Positions 12,490-28,518 of a stretch of DNA of 37,798 bases are shown one piece after another. This DNA is from an uncultured bacterium (GTDB lineage Bacteria; Cyanobacteriota; Vampirovibrionia; Gastranaerophilales; Gastranaerophilaceae). The notes under the pieces were generated by a model. That model was not told where the DNA came from and ran no database searches. It was given only the letters and a program-made list of their open reading frames with translations. The stretch is taken from positions 1-37,798 of the forward strand of contig CASEVT010000024.1 of NCBI GenBank assembly GCA_949291445.1. The letters run 5' to 3'. Numbering within the stretch: position 1 is the stretch's first letter; each line of letters starts with the position of its first letter. Position numbers and translations under genes: made by a program.

Positions 12490-13797
12490 TTAATCCAAAA
12501 CCCCAAACTTAGCTTTTTCACGTTTTGTCTCAGTAGCTTCATAAGCGTGACCGATATCACTTTGTTTCAGCCCAAACCAACCTGGGTGCTTCAACTGACC
12601 CGCACCGAACATCAAGTGCATAAAATTCTTGGTTACAGTTATAGCAGTGAACATACTGACCAAAACACCTATAACCAGAGTAAGAGCAAACCCCTTAATA
12701 ATACTTGTACCAAGGAAGTACAAGATTACGCAAGTGATGATCGTAGTCATATTCGAGTCAAAAATACTGGTAAACGCTCTGTCAAACCCTGCATTTATTG
12801 CAGTAAACAAAGTTCTACCTGCCTTCAATTCTTCTTTTGTTCTTTCAAAAATAAGTATATTAGCATCAACCGCCATACCTATACTCAGGATAAAACCTGC
12901 AATACCCGCGAGCGTCAATGTAACCGGAACTATTTTGAAGATAGCAAAAACGAGTATACTGTAAATTATAAGAGCAATATCTGCAATAAATCCGGGCAAA
13001 CGGTAATATAGCAACATAAACAACATAACAACGCTTATACCGATAACACCGGCAGTTTTGCTCTTATCAATACTATCAGCCCCCAAAGTAGGACCAACCA
13101 AGCTTTCTTCAATAATCTTTGCCGGTACAGGCAGTGCACCTGCATTCAATAGATCAACCATCTTCTTTGCTTCTTCATAAGCGAAACCGCTTTCACCGCC
13201 TGAAATTTGAGCATGTCCGCCAAGAATCGGTTCTTGAATCACCGGTGCAGACTGCATTTCGCCGTTGAAGAAGATAGCCATAGGCTTACCAACCAGCTCT
13301 TGTGTCAGTTTGCCAAATTTTTTAGCACCTTCTGATTTGAATTCCAATGCAACAACCCACTGACCGCTCTGACTTGTTGACACAAGTGCCTTTTGAACAT
13401 CCTTACCTGTCAAACCGGTTGATACCCAGCTTTGAGTACCATTAAATGCTTCTTGAGGTCTTTTAAATTCCAAATCAGCAGTTTCACCTAGAAATTCTTT
13501 TGCCTTAGCAGGATCTTTTATACTCGGAATTTCAACAAGTAATCTTTTTTCACCGGCCTTTTGCACTGTCGTTTCTGAAACACCCAGCGCATTTACTCGG
13601 TTTTCTATTGCATATTGCAAACTATCCATCATATCCGGTGTAATTTTTGCGATTGTAGCAGTCTTTTGTGCTTCAAGAACAAGTCTTGAACCGCCGACCA
13701 GATCCAAACCAAGCTTTGTTGGCTTGTTAAATATCACGATTACAGCCGCAATTACAAGCAGGATAATTGCCCAAAACATAACTTTTTTATTTTTCAT
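12490..13797 (-). CDS. secD: Protein translocase subunit SecD
   Basis: 435 aa, shorter than the ~615-aa enterobacterial protein, mainly in the periplasmic P1 region; similar compact forms occur in many phyla. N-terminal membrane span at ~6-23, then GLDLVGGS, a periplasmic region with the VNxLGVSE and VEIPSIKDP blocks, and five C-terminal spans with GMAVDANILIFERTKEEL. Partner of SecF in proton-driven protein export. Ribosome-binding site AGGGG 7-8 nt before the ATG. Promoter candidate at 13835-13864. Operon: secD-secF-HTH gene. Confidence 0.96.
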   Translation of the reverse strand: MKNKKVMFWAIILLVIAAVIVIFNKPTKLGLDLVGGSRLVLEAQKTATIAKITPDMMDSLQYAIENRVNALGVSETTVQKAGEKRLLVEIPSIKDPAKAKEFLGETADLEFKRPQEAFNGTQSWVSTGLTGKDVQKALVSTSQSGQWVVALEFKSEGAKKFGKLTQELVGKPMAIFFNGEMQSAPVIQEPILGGHAQISGGESGFAYEEAKKMVDLLNAGALPVPAKIIEESLVGPTLGADSIDKSKTAGVIGISVVMLFMLLYYRLPGFIADIALIIYSILVFAIFKIVPVTLTLAGIAGFILSIGMAVDANILIFERTKEELKAGRTLFTAINAGFDRAFTSIFDSNMTTIITCVILYFLGTSIIKGFALTLVIGVLVSMFTAITVTKNFMHLMFGAGQLKHPGWFGLKQSDIGHAYEATETKREKAKFGVLD

Positions 13798-23662: not shown

Positions 23663-23688
23663 AGTATAGTTTATAAAAAAAATAGTCA

Positions 23689-23697
23689 TGTTATAAT
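23689..23697 (+). promoter_or_regulatory. Leaderless extended -10 promoter
   Basis: TGT-TATAAT, a perfect extended -10 (-10 at 23692-23697), then TTAAGT (6 nt), then ATG 23704. No Shine-Dalgarno. Confidence 0.6.
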
Positions 23698-23703
23698 TTA
23701 AGT

Positions 23704-23904
23704 ATGGCAGACGCAATAACAACAACAATGGCAGAACAAACATACGCAATTCAAACTCTCTTGATGGCACAAACGCAACAAGAACTTCAAGGAGATATTG
23801 CTATGCAGCTCATTCAAAGCGCAGTAATGCCGCAAACCGAATGGCAAGACCCCTCAGAAATTACCCCTGCACAACTCAAATCTCCGATTGATATAAGAGT
23901 ATAG
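23704..23904 (+). CDS. Small protein, YjfB-like (putative)
   Basis: 66 aa. Gln/Ala/Thr-rich amphipathic helix over residues ~7-42 (MAEQTYAIQTLLMAQTQQEL), then a short Pro-containing tail ending SPIDIRV. Overall size, the heptad-like helix, and the final IDIRV resemble the YjfB-type putative motility proteins; this is from memory of the pattern and was not aligned. No signal peptide. Followed 9 bp later by the convergent bioD stop. A second possible flagellar-type gene (FliK-like) lies at 29666-30667. Confidence 0.5.
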   Translation: MADAITTTMAEQTYAIQTLLMAQTQQELQGDIAMQLIQSAVMPQTEWQDPSEITPAQLKSPIDIRV

Positions 23905-23913
23905 TTGCGGTAG

Positions 23914-24636
23914 CTATAGATTCATATTGAGTTTAGGTATTTTGATATTGAATATTTTTTCAATATCGACGTTGTTTATAAAAATATCTATAAATTCACC
24001 CGGTTTAACATTTTGAAAATCGGCAATATCAGGTATAATACCGAGAATTTTAGCATCTGAATATTCTTCAATCAATCTTGGTGCAGTTTTTATTGCCAAA
24101 TCATCAGTTCCGGACGGATATTTATTAATCAAAACACCCGCAATATTAATCCCCATAGTTTTTGCCTGATTAATAGTCAAAAGGGTGTGATTCACCGTAC
24201 CGAGATCGGGACGGGCAACGATCAAAGCAGGAATATTCAAAAGTTTTATTACATCTGCAATAGTTTTTTCGGGCAGAATCGGCACCATAAGCCCACCTGC
24301 CCCTTCAACAAGCACTACCTCACAACGTTGTCTCAACGCCTGAAACTCTCTCTCAACGGTCATTAAACTCATATTTACACCGTCAATCTCGGCAGCAATC
24401 AACGGAGCCGTCGGCGGTTTCAGGCTATATGAACAGAGAGTTTCAATATAGAAGTCTATTTTTTTTATAAATGCTAAATCAGGTGAAACATAAAATCCGT
24501 TTTTTTCTTGTGCACCACTTTGAAACGGTTTATAAACACCTGTTTTATACCCCAAGGATTGCATCACGGCAGCAAGACCTGCGGTAACCGCAGTTTTTCC
24601 AACATCAGTATCTGTACCTGTGACAAATAAATTCAT
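23914..24636 (-). CDS. bioD: Dethiobiotin synthetase
   Basis: 240 aa. Forms the ureido ring of dethiobiotin from 7,8-diaminononanoate, CO2 and ATP. P-loop variant GTDTDVGKTAVT at residues 6-17; KPFQSGAQ at ~36-43; the acidic VEGAGGLMVP block at ~113-122; and the nucleotide-specificity segment around GVLINKYP. The ATG overlaps the rluB stop by 4 nt (ATGA), so the two are co-transcribed and coupled. No other biotin genes are in the window, so the pairing with an rRNA-modifying enzyme is unusual. Confidence 0.93.
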   Translation of the reverse strand: MNLFVTGTDTDVGKTAVTAGLAAVMQSLGYKTGVYKPFQSGAQEKNGFYVSPDLAFIKKIDFYIETLCSYSLKPPTAPLIAAEIDGVNMSLMTVEREFQALRQRCEVVLVEGAGGLMVPILPEKTIADVIKLLNIPALIVARPDLGTVNHTLLTINQAKTMGINIAGVLINKYPSGTDDLAIKTAPRLIEEYSDAKILGIIPDIADFQNVKPGEFIDIFINNVDIEKIFNIKIPKLNMNL

Positions 24637-25412
24637 TGTAAGTCCTTCTTCTTCGCCGCTTCTTGCTGCAACTTTTCAGCTTTTTCAAGCTGTTTGAGTA
24701 AATCTTTAATTTCTTTGGGCTTAATATACTTAAACTGACCTTTTTTCAATCCCTGTATATTTACGGTACCGTGAGAAACCCTTTTCAAAGATACGACCGG
24801 ATGTCCTATATAATCGAGCATCCTTCTTATTTGTCGATTTAATCCCTGATACAAAGTTACCTGTAAAACGCTATTTTTCCCTTCGTAGTCAACAACCATA
24901 ACATCTGCATAGGCAATTTTGCCCTTTTCAATCTCAATACCCTTAGCCATTTGTAAAAGTTCATCGGAGTTTAGCTTGCCCTCAGCAACTACCCTATATA
25001 TTTTAGGTATTTTTACAGATGGATGAGTAAGTTTGTTAATCAAATCACCATCATTTGTTAAAATCAAAAGTCCGGTAGAATCTTTGTCTAATCTGCCAAC
25101 CGGTTTCAGCTCTTTCATTTCCGGCGGCAAAATATCATAAATTGTTTTTCTTCCCTTTTCATCATCACAGGTTGTAATATAACCTGCCGGCTTATAATAT
25201 TTAACGTAGACAAGCGTCGATTTTTTCAACGTCTGCCCGTTAACAGACACATTGTCACGAGCATTAACAAGATATCCCATTTCGGTTATCCTCTCACCAT
25301 TGACTTTCACAACACCGGCTTCAATTAGCTCATCAGCTTTTCTGCGCGAACACAAACCACTTTGAGCAATATATTTATTCAGTCTGACCTTTTCTTCCTT
25401 AACTTTTTTCAT
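24633..25412 (-). CDS. rluB: Large-subunit rRNA pseudouridine synthase, RluB/RsuA family
   Basis: 259 aa. N-terminal S4 RNA-binding domain (~8-60: RLNKYIAQSGLCSRRKADEL) followed by a TruA/RsuA-type catalytic domain with the GRLDKDSTGLL motif, whose first Asp is the catalytic residue, and the GLNRQIRRML block. Converts a uridine in ribosomal RNA to pseudouridine; RluB-type (23S) is favoured over RsuA by overall form, but not proven. Basic C-terminal tail rich in Lys/Glu. Starts at ATG 25412, 6 nt from a -10 box, with no Shine-Dalgarno; bioD follows with a 4-nt overlap. Confidence 0.9.
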   Translation of the reverse strand: MKKVKEEKVRLNKYIAQSGLCSRRKADELIEAGVVKVNGERITEMGYLVNARDNVSVNGQTLKKSTLVYVKYYKPAGYITTCDDEKGRKTIYDILPPEMKELKPVGRLDKDSTGLLILTNDGDLINKLTHPSVKIPKIYRVVAEGKLNSDELLQMAKGIEIEKGKIAYADVMVVDYEGKNSVLQVTLYQGLNRQIRRMLDYIGHPVVSLKRVSHGTVNIQGLKKGQFKYIKPKEIKDLLKQLEKAEKLQQEAAKKKDLQ

Positions 25413-25418
25413 AGCTAT

Positions 25419-25447
25419 ATCATGAATAAAAAAGCTCTAAATTGCAA
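25419..25447 (-). promoter_or_regulatory. Leaderless rluB promoter, sharing a -35
   Basis: Minus strand: -35 TTGCAA (25442-25447), 17-bp spacer, -10 CATGAT (25419-25424, 4 of 6), then ATAGCT (6 nt), then ATG. The -35 hexamer is its own reverse complement and is also used by the plus-strand promoter. Confidence 0.5.
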
Positions 25448-25470
25448 GGTATACTAAGTTATGCTAAAAT
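25442..25470 (+). promoter_or_regulatory. Promoter of the glycosyltransferase gene, sharing a -35
   Basis: -35 TTGCAA (25442-25447), 17-bp spacer, extended -10 ATGC-TAAAAT (-10 at 25465-25470). Predicted start near 25477, leader ~13 nt with the AGGGGGGG site. It lies within the upstream part of the open frame, ruling out the earlier start at 25442. Confidence 0.6.
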
Positions 25471-25489
25471 CCCACACAGGGGGGGTATT

Positions 25490-27118
25490 ATGGAATTTAC
25501 AAAAAGATTAAACCTAATTTTTTTGGGCTTAATATTTTTCATAAATTCTGTAATTTACTACGCAAAAATCACATACCTGTACACAGATTTTGGAAGAGAA
25601 GCCTTTTACCCGCTCGCAATAACACAAGGTGAAGTATTATACAAAGACATTTTCAATATGTACGGTCCGTTCTCGTACCTGTTTAACGCATTTATGTACA
25701 ACATTATAGGCGCAAATATCCATACCCTCTACATTGTAGGAATAATATCAGCCTTTATTATATTGTGTTTTGTATACCTTATTGCAAGAAATTTTTCGGA
25801 TAAATTAACCTCCACGGCAATAACTCTTGTAATAATGCAAAGTGTGGTTTTTTCAAAATTCATAATGAATTATATACAACCCTACTCCTATGCAATAACC
25901 TACGGGCTATGTGCAATGCTCGTTTCTATATATTGCTACATAAAATACTCAAACTCTAAAACCAGTACATATTTGGGAGTTGCATCGTTTTTTGCAGGAG
26001 TTGCATTTGCGAATAAATACGAATTTTTGTTTTATCCTATTTTGCTGTTTTTATGCCTGATATTTATACACAAAGAAAAAAAATTATTCCTGCCTCTTTT
26101 TCTCTTTGCCCTTCCTAATCTTGTATGCTTTTTATTTTTATTCAAACATGGATTAACCTTTTATGATTTAATTGAAAATTTCAAGCTTGTTGCTAAATGC
26201 GCTAACACAGACGCCTACCAATACTTTTTGAAAAACGCGATGGGGTTCTCAATTGAAGGATGTATCGTTTCAATAGGATCAATAATTTTGCTTCTAATTT
26301 TATTTTTTGGGACAGAAAAGCTCTGTGAGAGAGCGAAAAATCACGCATACTTGCTCATTGTTCCGCTGGGAATAATTTTGTTTGTGACTAAAACTCAAAA
26401 CTTCATCTTACAGGGATTAGCAATTCTTGTTACAATTTTGCTTTTAGTGAAATTTAAAAAAGCAAAAACTTCAAAAATATACCTTTTTGTATTCATATGC
26501 GCAATTATTTTTAGCATAAAAAGCTATATCGCCCTAATAGTCCCAAACGGATACGGTGCATATTGCTTACCGCTGATACTTATTGCATTGATTGGGATAA
26601 CCAGTATTTCTCAGATAACGGATGATACAAAAAAAAGTATCGTTATTTTACTGAGTTCAATTGCACTTGCTAACAGTATTATGAACTTATTCCTCATAAA
26701 AAATCGAATATATGAAATCAATTCGCCATCAGGCAAAATAAAAAACACACAAAAAGCAGCAATGAGCTATAATAAGCTTCTTAACTACATCCAAAACTCA
26801 ACCAATAAAGATGACAAAATAATAGTTTTGCCGGAGACGCCACTGTTAAACTTTCTAACGAACAGAAAATCAGACAACTACTACAATGACTTTACGCCGG
26901 ACAGACTTGAAGCATATACAGAAAACAGGATAATTGAAAGATTCAAAACACAACCACCAAAATATTTTATCATAATAAAAATACCGCAAAAACCGTACGG
27001 CAAAGGTGCATTTTCAGAAGACTACGGAACTGAAGTTTTTCAATGGATATCGAAAAATTATACACTCGAGCAAAAAATATTAGATGATGTACCGGTTTTA
27101 ATATTTAAGAAAATATGA
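25490..27118 (+). CDS. ArnT/PMT-type membrane glycosyltransferase (putative)
   Basis: 542 aa from ATG 25490 with AGGGGGG 5 nt away. Eleven or so hydrophobic segments across residues ~10-395, then a soluble ~135-residue C-terminal domain. Near the N-terminus, after the first span, DFGREAFYPLAITQGEVLYKD and YGPFSYLFN match the acidic first loop of the GT-C fold (GT39/GT83 family, polyprenyl-phosphate sugar donors), where the Asp is the catalytic residue. Acceptor and sugar cannot be read. The C-terminal region has an IIVLPETPLLNFLTNR segment typical of this group. Possible roles are modification of surface glycans or lipids. Divergent from rluB-bioD. Confidence 0.75.
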   Translation: MEFTKRLNLIFLGLIFFINSVIYYAKITYLYTDFGREAFYPLAITQGEVLYKDIFNMYGPFSYLFNAFMYNIIGANIHTLYIVGIISAFIILCFVYLIARNFSDKLTSTAITLVIMQSVVFSKFIMNYIQPYSYAITYGLCAMLVSIYCYIKYSNSKTSTYLGVASFFAGVAFANKYEFLFYPILLFLCLIFIHKEKKLFLPLFLFALPNLVCFLFLFKHGLTFYDLIENFKLVAKCANTDAYQYFLKNAMGFSIEGCIVSIGSIILLLILFFGTEKLCERAKNHAYLLIVPLGIILFVTKTQNFILQGLAILVTILLLVKFKKAKTSKIYLFVFICAIIFSIKSYIALIVPNGYGAYCLPLILIALIGITSISQITDDTKKSIVILLSSIALANSIMNLFLIKNRIYEINSPSGKIKNTQKAAMSYNKLLNYIQNSTNKDDKIIVLPETPLLNFLTNRKSDNYYNDFTPDRLEAYTENRIIERFKTQPPKYFIIIKIPQKPYGKGAFSEDYGTEVFQWISKNYTLEQKILDDVPVLIFKKI

Positions 27119-27127: not shown

Positions 27128-27175
27128 GAAAATACAAAATGGCATATTTCGGCTAGAGTGCAGGAAGGACAAGAC

Positions 27176-27847
27176 TTGAGACTATTTGAAGAACACAATC
27201 TTAAAGGAACACTAATCTGCGTTGAGGGAATAGACGGTTCCGGCAAATCCACTCAGTTATCGATTCTTCGTGATTGGCTTAAATCAAAGGGATTGGACGT
27301 TATACACACAGAGTGGAATTCCTCCGAACTTATCTCGCAAACAACCAAAAAAGCGAAAAAGAAAAACCTGTTAAGCCCGAGAACATTCAGTCTTTTGCAC
27401 GCTGTAGATTTTGCCGATAGACTTGAACAAATCATTATACCAGCAATGAAAGCCGGTTTTATCGTACTGGCTGACAGATATGTATATACTGCTTTTGCAA
27501 GAGATGTTGCAAGAGGTGTGGATAAGGACTGGGTAAGAAACATGTACGGTTTTGCAATAAAACCTGATTTAACATTGTATTACAGCATCAATGCGGAGAC
27601 ATCACTCGAAAGAATCTGTTCTAATCGTACACCGAGTTTCTATGAGGCAGGAATGGACCTAAAACTTAGCAACAATCCGTATAAAAGCTACGTTATTTTT
27701 CAAAACATGGTAAATACTGAGTATTTGCAGATGGTTGATGAATTTGGATTGGTCAAAATAGATGCACAGCAATCCATACATTCAAAGCAGCTTAAGATGC
27801 GCGAATACGTAACTAATTGCCTTAAGAAAAAAGGAATAAATATTTAA
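27176..27847 (+). CDS. Thymidylate-kinase-like P-loop protein 1
   Basis: 223 aa from TTG 27176, chosen because AGGAAGGA lies 6 nt upstream; the GTG at 27158 is too close and would add six residues with no site. P-loop VEGIDGSGKSTQ at ~17-28. Not an ordinary Tmk: the usual TREPGG is TEWNSSELI, and DRYxxSxxAYQ is DRYVYTAFARD. A block SLLHAVDFADRLEQ follows a basic stretch of KKAKKKNLL. This matches a group of TMK-like proteins found in other phyla with unknown or broader nucleotide substrate. No clear LID arginine motif. Stop overlaps the start of a near twin (TAATG). Confidence 0.75.
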   Translation: MRLFEEHNLKGTLICVEGIDGSGKSTQLSILRDWLKSKGLDVIHTEWNSSELISQTTKKAKKKNLLSPRTFSLLHAVDFADRLEQIIIPAMKAGFIVLADRYVYTAFARDVARGVDKDWVRNMYGFAIKPDLTLYYSINAETSLERICSNRTPSFYEAGMDLKLSNNPYKSYVIFQNMVNTEYLQMVDEFGLVKIDAQQSIHSKQLKMREYVTNCLKKKGINI

Positions 27848-28518
27848 TGGAAAACAGAAACACAAAACATGAATATCCCGGTTTGCTCATAGTGATCGAA
27901 GGAACTGACGGTTCTGGAAAGTCTACACAAATCAACCTGTTAAAACGTTGGATAGAAGATAAGAGTTATGGTTGTATGGTTAGCGAATGGAAAACGTCCA
28001 GACTAATTGCCAATGTTATTGATGATGCAAAGGACAGAAACTTGCTCAACGCAACCACATTCAGTCTTCTTTATGCAGCAGATTTTGCCGACAGACTTGA
28101 AAACACAATTATCCCAGCGCTAAAAGCCGGTTTTGTAGTATTACTTGACAGGTATACGTACACAGCCTTTGCACGTGACGTTGTCAGAGGACAGGATATG
28201 GAATGGGTAAAAAAGCTTTACAATTTTGCACCTGAACCTGATTTAACATTTTATCTTGAAGTACCGATTGACATTCTTTTGAAGCGTGTCATCGGGACTA
28301 CCGGTTTGGATTATTGGGAATCCGGACGTGATATTGGGCTAAGCTCTGATTTTTACAAAAGTTTTAAAATCTATCAGGGAAAATGCCTTGATGAATATGA
28401 ACAAATGAAGTCAGAATACAATTTTAACAGCATTGATGGAACTTTGCCTGTCGAAGAAATCCACAAAAAAATAGTCGAAAAAGTTCAGTGTCTTTTAAAT
28501 GAAGGAAAACTTGATTAA
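27847..28518 (+). CDS. Thymidylate-kinase-like P-loop protein 2
   Basis: 223 aa, the same length as the preceding gene and clearly its paralogue, by eye close to half identical over the core. P-loop VIEGTDGSGKSTQ; SEWKTSRLI in place of TEWNSSELI; SLLYAADFADRLE; DRYTYTAFARDVVRG; PEPDLTFYLEV. Both keep the P-loop and DR(Y) phosphate region, so both may be active kinases, but the acceptor pocket differs from canonical Tmk. The genes share one nucleotide (stop TAA and start ATG as TAATG), so translation is coupled; a two-subunit or substrate-split pair is possible. A weak hairpin TTGC-ACAT-GCAA followed by T6 lies at 28540-28557. Confidence 0.75.
   Translation: MENRNTKHEYPGLLIVIEGTDGSGKSTQINLLKRWIEDKSYGCMVSEWKTSRLIANVIDDAKDRNLLNATTFSLLYAADFADRLENTIIPALKAGFVVLLDRYTYTAFARDVVRGQDMEWVKKLYNFAPEPDLTFYLEVPIDILLKRVIGTTGLDYWESGRDIGLSSDFYKSFKIYQGKCLDEYEQMKSEYNFNSIDGTLPVEEIHKKIVEKVQCLLNEGKLD

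Follow-up and report, generated by a model that had tools for sequence, protein, structure and literature searches.

A palindromic -35 hexamer probably common to two divergent promoters in one genus of Gastranaerophilaceae

Introduction

In Escherichia coli, the divergent sigma-28 promoters flgAP2 and flgBP2 use the same -35 hexamer; each is active in vitro and each depends on its own -10 element (PMC12781870). The bidirectional promoters described by Warman et al. share a -10 element, with starts mostly 10-23 bp apart (PMC12825309). Five such promoters of E. coli showed no competition at the basal level, whereas the divergent transcript was repressed when one direction was strongly activated, and competition thus depends on initiation rates (PMC12825309). 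As regards transcripts that begin at the start codon, one study describes leaderless bacterial genes as led by a -10 element (PMC3160421).

Here we analyze a stretch of 37,798 nucleotides from an uncultured bacterium of the Gastranaerophilaceae (hereafter, the window), in which an earlier note had proposed two divergent promoters competing for one palindromic -35 hexamer. The genome of the window is denoted G000, its genus g1, a sister genus g6 and a further genus g33.

Results

Layout of the divergent gene pair

The putative promoters occupy a 77-bp gap between two divergent genes. The palindrome TTGCAA (25442-25447, assigned to no strand), read directly and identical in the close relative G002, is the candidate -35 hexamer for both. 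On the minus strand, the leftward -10 element CATGAT (25419-25424) lies 17 bp from the hexamer, and on the plus strand the same distance separates the hexamer from the extended -10 element TGC-TAAAAT (25462-25470, with TGC at 25462-25464 and TAAAAT at 25465-25470), which has an equivalent in G002 and before homologous genes of g6. The leftward transcript is predicted to start at 25412 (minus strand), on the A of the ATG, and would be leaderless; the rightward transcript would carry a 13-nt leader (25477-25489, plus strand) in which a run of G at 25479-25485 forms a Shine-Dalgarno-like site. Upon re-reading of the sequence, the hexamer, both 17-bp spacers, the two -10 elements and the leads of 0 and ~13 nt were all found where the earlier note had placed them. 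The -10 elements are 40 bp apart (25424 and 25465), and the predicted starts ~65 bp apart.

The first leftward gene (24633-25412, minus strand) encodes an rRNA pseudouridine synthase with Pfam S4 and PseudoU_synth_2 domains and a TIGR00093 match above the cut-off. It had been named rluB, which should be replaced by RsuA/RluB/RluF-type pseudouridine synthase: the RluF profile fits best, and both RluF and RluB score below their cut-offs. Its end is overlapped by the gene for dethiobiotin synthase, bioD (23914-24636, minus strand), an assignment that is secure (TIGR00347 above the cut-off); the same genome also encodes, at another place, a BATS domain of the sort found in biotin synthase. Rightwards, from the ATG at 25490, lies a gene (25490-27118, plus strand) for a multi-pass glycosyltransferase (GT) of the GT-C type, 542 aa long and with a 68% identical orthologue in G002. 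The GT-C type is assigned by a weak match to Pfam PMT_2 (2.4e-06), which is all that speaks for the role in surface glycosylation previously attributed to the gene.

Other features of the locus include a short ORF at 23704-23904 (66 aa, without an NCBIfam match), ahead of which lies a good promoter-like site with a TG motif, TTTATA-16-TATAAT (23670-23697). The GT gene is followed by two adjoining dTMP kinase-like genes (27158-28518), both above the TIGR00041 cut-off; in G002 (L069), too, the GT gene is followed by the beginning of a very similar gene. No Rfam family matched anywhere in the window.

Conservation of the putative leftward promoter

Of 146 related genomes, 139 carry a homologue of the pseudouridine synthase, as do all 23 and all four genomes of two sister genera. 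A 29-bp element, TTGYAWTTT-N6-TTTTTRTTCATNAT, is shared by 28 upstream regions from g1, g6 and g33, always with a 17-bp spacer. On the leftward strand, TTG and the A at position 5 of the hexamer are invariant in these regions, and CAT.AT is present in 28/28. The alignment holds ~2 bits per column at most positions of the -35 hexamer, the T-tract of the spacer and the -10 element, and ~0.3 outside, so that the block corresponding to the leftward core promoter TTGCAATTT-N6-TTTTTATTCATGAT (25419-25447, minus strand) has sharp edges. G001 has the element too, with no divergent GT ORF found beside it, and two g6 genomes are without it. It was not seen in those more distant genera of the family to which the examination extended, where the gene mostly follows other coding sequence at a short distance or is preceded by an upstream region of another kind. 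Collectively, these comparisons make the leftward element a well-supported candidate promoter, although, judged by E. coli, CATGAT makes a poor -10: both CATGAT and TTGCAA match the consensus at 4/6 positions, which places the promoter below the 9-of-12 threshold of our scan.

The leftward element has a single exact match in its own genome. A search for a regulon, covering genomes of g1, g6 and g33, revealed no second copy at 0-1 mismatches; two sites with two mismatches are taken as chance, and other matches, with three, look like background. Together with the fixed spacing to CAT.AT, the single copy per genome argues against the reading of TTGCAA as a dyad operator bound by a transcription factor rather than as a -35 element. 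The perfect palindrome and the extension of the conserved block into the spacer would fit an operator, but many relatives retain the leading TTG while losing the palindrome (TTGCAT, TTGTAA), and we regard this reading as extremely unlikely.

We do not claim exceptional conservation for the leftward element and have dropped that idea, as the upstream block scores 13 between G000 and G044, a value reached or exceeded by 37 of the 79 other orthologous gaps, chosen with a rough filter that let some coding sequence through. Separately, upstream regions conserved over ~40-60 bp between this genome and G044 were observed at L241:11600-12200 and upstream of the L241 gene at 12501-13500 (minus-strand coordinates), and these are longer than the promoter of the pseudouridine synthase type.

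Predicted leaderless and led starts

Known leaderless bacterial genes have the -10 element 6 nt before the ATG and no Shine-Dalgarno site. The pseudouridine synthase gene resembles them and is in no way unusual, its -10 element lying 6 nt from the ATG, which puts the predicted start at the start codon itself; exactly this distance is kept in half of the alignment (14 of the 28 upstream regions), the other relatives having gained short leaders. Leaderless starts look normal in this genome, because TATAAT is over-represented 6-7 nt before the ATGs of sampled genes (11 cases, versus ~1-2 per position elsewhere). Downstream of the preceding in-frame stop, no ATG, GTG or TTG comes before the ATG at 25412, and the GT gene has its G-rich site, with GGGAGG at the equivalent place in G002. 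Thus, at the level of predicted starts, the proposed contrast of one transcript without and one with a leader fits. A GT start at TTG 25442 was considered and rejected, because the GT of G002 matches at the N terminus from ATG 25490 onward.

Within the sister genus (L012, L070, L072, L015 and L089), both the divergent GT gene and the pseudouridine synthase gene may lack a leader or have a short one with no clear Shine-Dalgarno site. Leader state thus seems to switch within that genus.

The putatively shared hexamer in a close relative

G002 has the same gene pair in the same order, with a gap one base longer. Fourfold-degenerate sites identical between G000 and G002 number 26/75 and 39/119, indicating that neutral sites are near saturation. 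The gap in G002 nevertheless retains TTGCAA, both 17-bp spacers, CATGAT and TGC-TARAAT, the rightward -10 being TGC-TAGAAT at the same spacing. In TTATGCTARAATCCC, 1/15 positions differs between the two genomes, and the 17-bp spacer is kept despite five substitutions. The earlier note's proposal would have been abandoned had the hexamer or the spacers been lost from a close relative sharing the gene order; G002, the one such relative among the genomes compared, has lost neither. Hence, in both G000 and G002, one hexamer stands 17 bp from each of two outward -10 elements. Among the three genomes of g1, two have this arrangement and the third is without the gene pair.

Separate -35 candidates in the sister genus g6

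In several g6 genomes, related GTs are likewise divergent to the pseudouridine synthase gene. The adjoining GTs fall in one supported clade (98/92), with some non-adjacent copies inside, so that the neighborhood is probably older than the genus. The extended -10 TGNTAAAAT precedes the related GT at eight of the nine g6 loci tested with an adjoining GT (TGN-TAAAAT or TAGAAT), the exception, L013, having a plain TATAAT. This comparison supports the predicted rightward promoter. The distance of this -10 to the hexamer of the pseudouridine synthase promoter ranges from 9 to 51 bp (9, 26, 28, 29, 39, 51), and most g6 GT promoters have their own -35 candidate 17-18 bp upstream: TTGCAT-17 in L070, L072 and L012, TTGACT-18 in L015 and TTGTGC-17 in L083. 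In L070, L072 and L012, the order is TTGCAA-5 bp-TTGCAT-17-TAAAAT, with the two hexamers 11 bp apart. Recurrence of the hexamer with both 17-bp spacers is seen in G002 but does not extend to the g6 loci tested.

The variable distance bears on the chief rival explanation, in which the hexamer serves the leftward promoter only, the extended -10 of the GT ignores any -35, and the 17-bp rightward spacing is coincidental. TGN-TAAAAT stays constant while its distance to the hexamer varies, an extended -10 may need no -35, and the 17 bp may be a chance draw from such a range. The -35 candidates at 17-18 bp in most g6 GT promoters, and the survival of the 17-bp spacing through the substitutions between G000 and G002, speak against it. 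On balance, we consider this explanation possible but doubtful.

Frequency of the pattern in the genome

Genome statistics cover 716 kb of the 1.78-Mb genome, in which TTGCAA occurs 718 times. A -10-like hexamer lies 16-18 bp away on both sides of nine of these 718 sites, where the one-sided rate (146 of 1436 sides) predicts ~7.4; this near-chance frequency is also consistent with use of the hexamer by the leftward promoter only. The site studied here is the only one of the 718 with 17/17 spacing and -10 matches of at least 5/6 and at least 4/6 (0.56 expected). A promoter scan of the region recovered 19 promoter-like sites versus 20.9 in shuffles. The bare sequence pattern is thus weak and near chance; what raises the site above chance is its position between two divergent starts, together with its conservation.

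Discussion

The reading that we favor, and hold to be probable, is that of two overlapping housekeeping-type promoters with one palindromic -35 hexamer common to both in this genus, the result of a lineage-specific merger. A leftward promoter would yield a pseudouridine synthase-bioD transcript starting on its ATG, and a rightward extended -10 promoter a GT transcript with a short Shine-Dalgarno leader; TTGCAA, at 17 bp from both -10 elements, would be open to recognition by sigma region 4 in both directions. Activity and start points on both sides, as well as the role of the hexamer in rightward transcription, are predictions from the sequence. In g6, promoters of the same kinds would lie next to each other, with distinct -35 candidates and variable distances, which is why sharing appears to be a lineage-specific merger and not a conserved switch. 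The arrangement thus appears to be a merger of two older promoters, seen in g1 only and kept in two diverged species, rather than a family-wide design, although the shared spacing comes from two genomes of a single genus. A simple route to it would be deletion of the 11 bp that separate two hexamers placed as in L070, L072 and L012, and the small gap perhaps favored the merger.

Judging by usual polymerase footprints, the geometry would make simultaneous occupancy by two polymerases impossible. This exclusion is what might turn the locus into a selected coupling switch, in which polymerase at one gene represses the other and so links glycosylation to biotin synthesis and rRNA modification. G002 retains both halves, but the arrangement is absent from g6, the divergent GT was not found in G001, and basal activity of the five E. 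coli bidirectional promoters is too low for competition (PMC12825309); such a switch is highly unlikely. We consider it very improbable, too, that the single palindromic -35 is a selected toggle that needs no regulator and switches between leaderless and led transcription, born of the fusion of two once-separate hexamers spaced by one helical turn. Competition between the two transcripts is hypothetical, and at low initiation rates exclusion is probably of little consequence.

Together with relatives in the separate-hexamer state, the putatively merged pair offers a compact natural case in which to study the merging of overlapping promoters and the weight of polymerase competition where promoters are weak. 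The locus also supplies a well-conserved predicted leaderless promoter in a lineage of uncultured type and is otherwise ordinary.

As in the promoters of Warman et al., the symmetry of the sequence would allow a single polymerase at a time to bind, facing either way. Unlike those promoters, in which the -10 is shared, the element in common here would be the -35, and neither overlapping -10 elements nor starts 10-23 bp apart are found, given the 40 bp between the -10s. The closer likeness is to flgAP2/flgBP2, the one shared-hexamer precedent that we found in the open literature, where the absence of others proves little. In both cases two back-to-back promoters use one -35 hexamer, in the present one as a prediction from sequence comparison. 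The E. coli pair uses sigma-28, with MarA activating one side, whereas the present promoters would be of the housekeeping type, one having an extended -10 and the other a predicted leaderless start. The site would therefore be a further example of the flgAP2/flgBP2 kind, with a palindromic hexamer, and not a new category.
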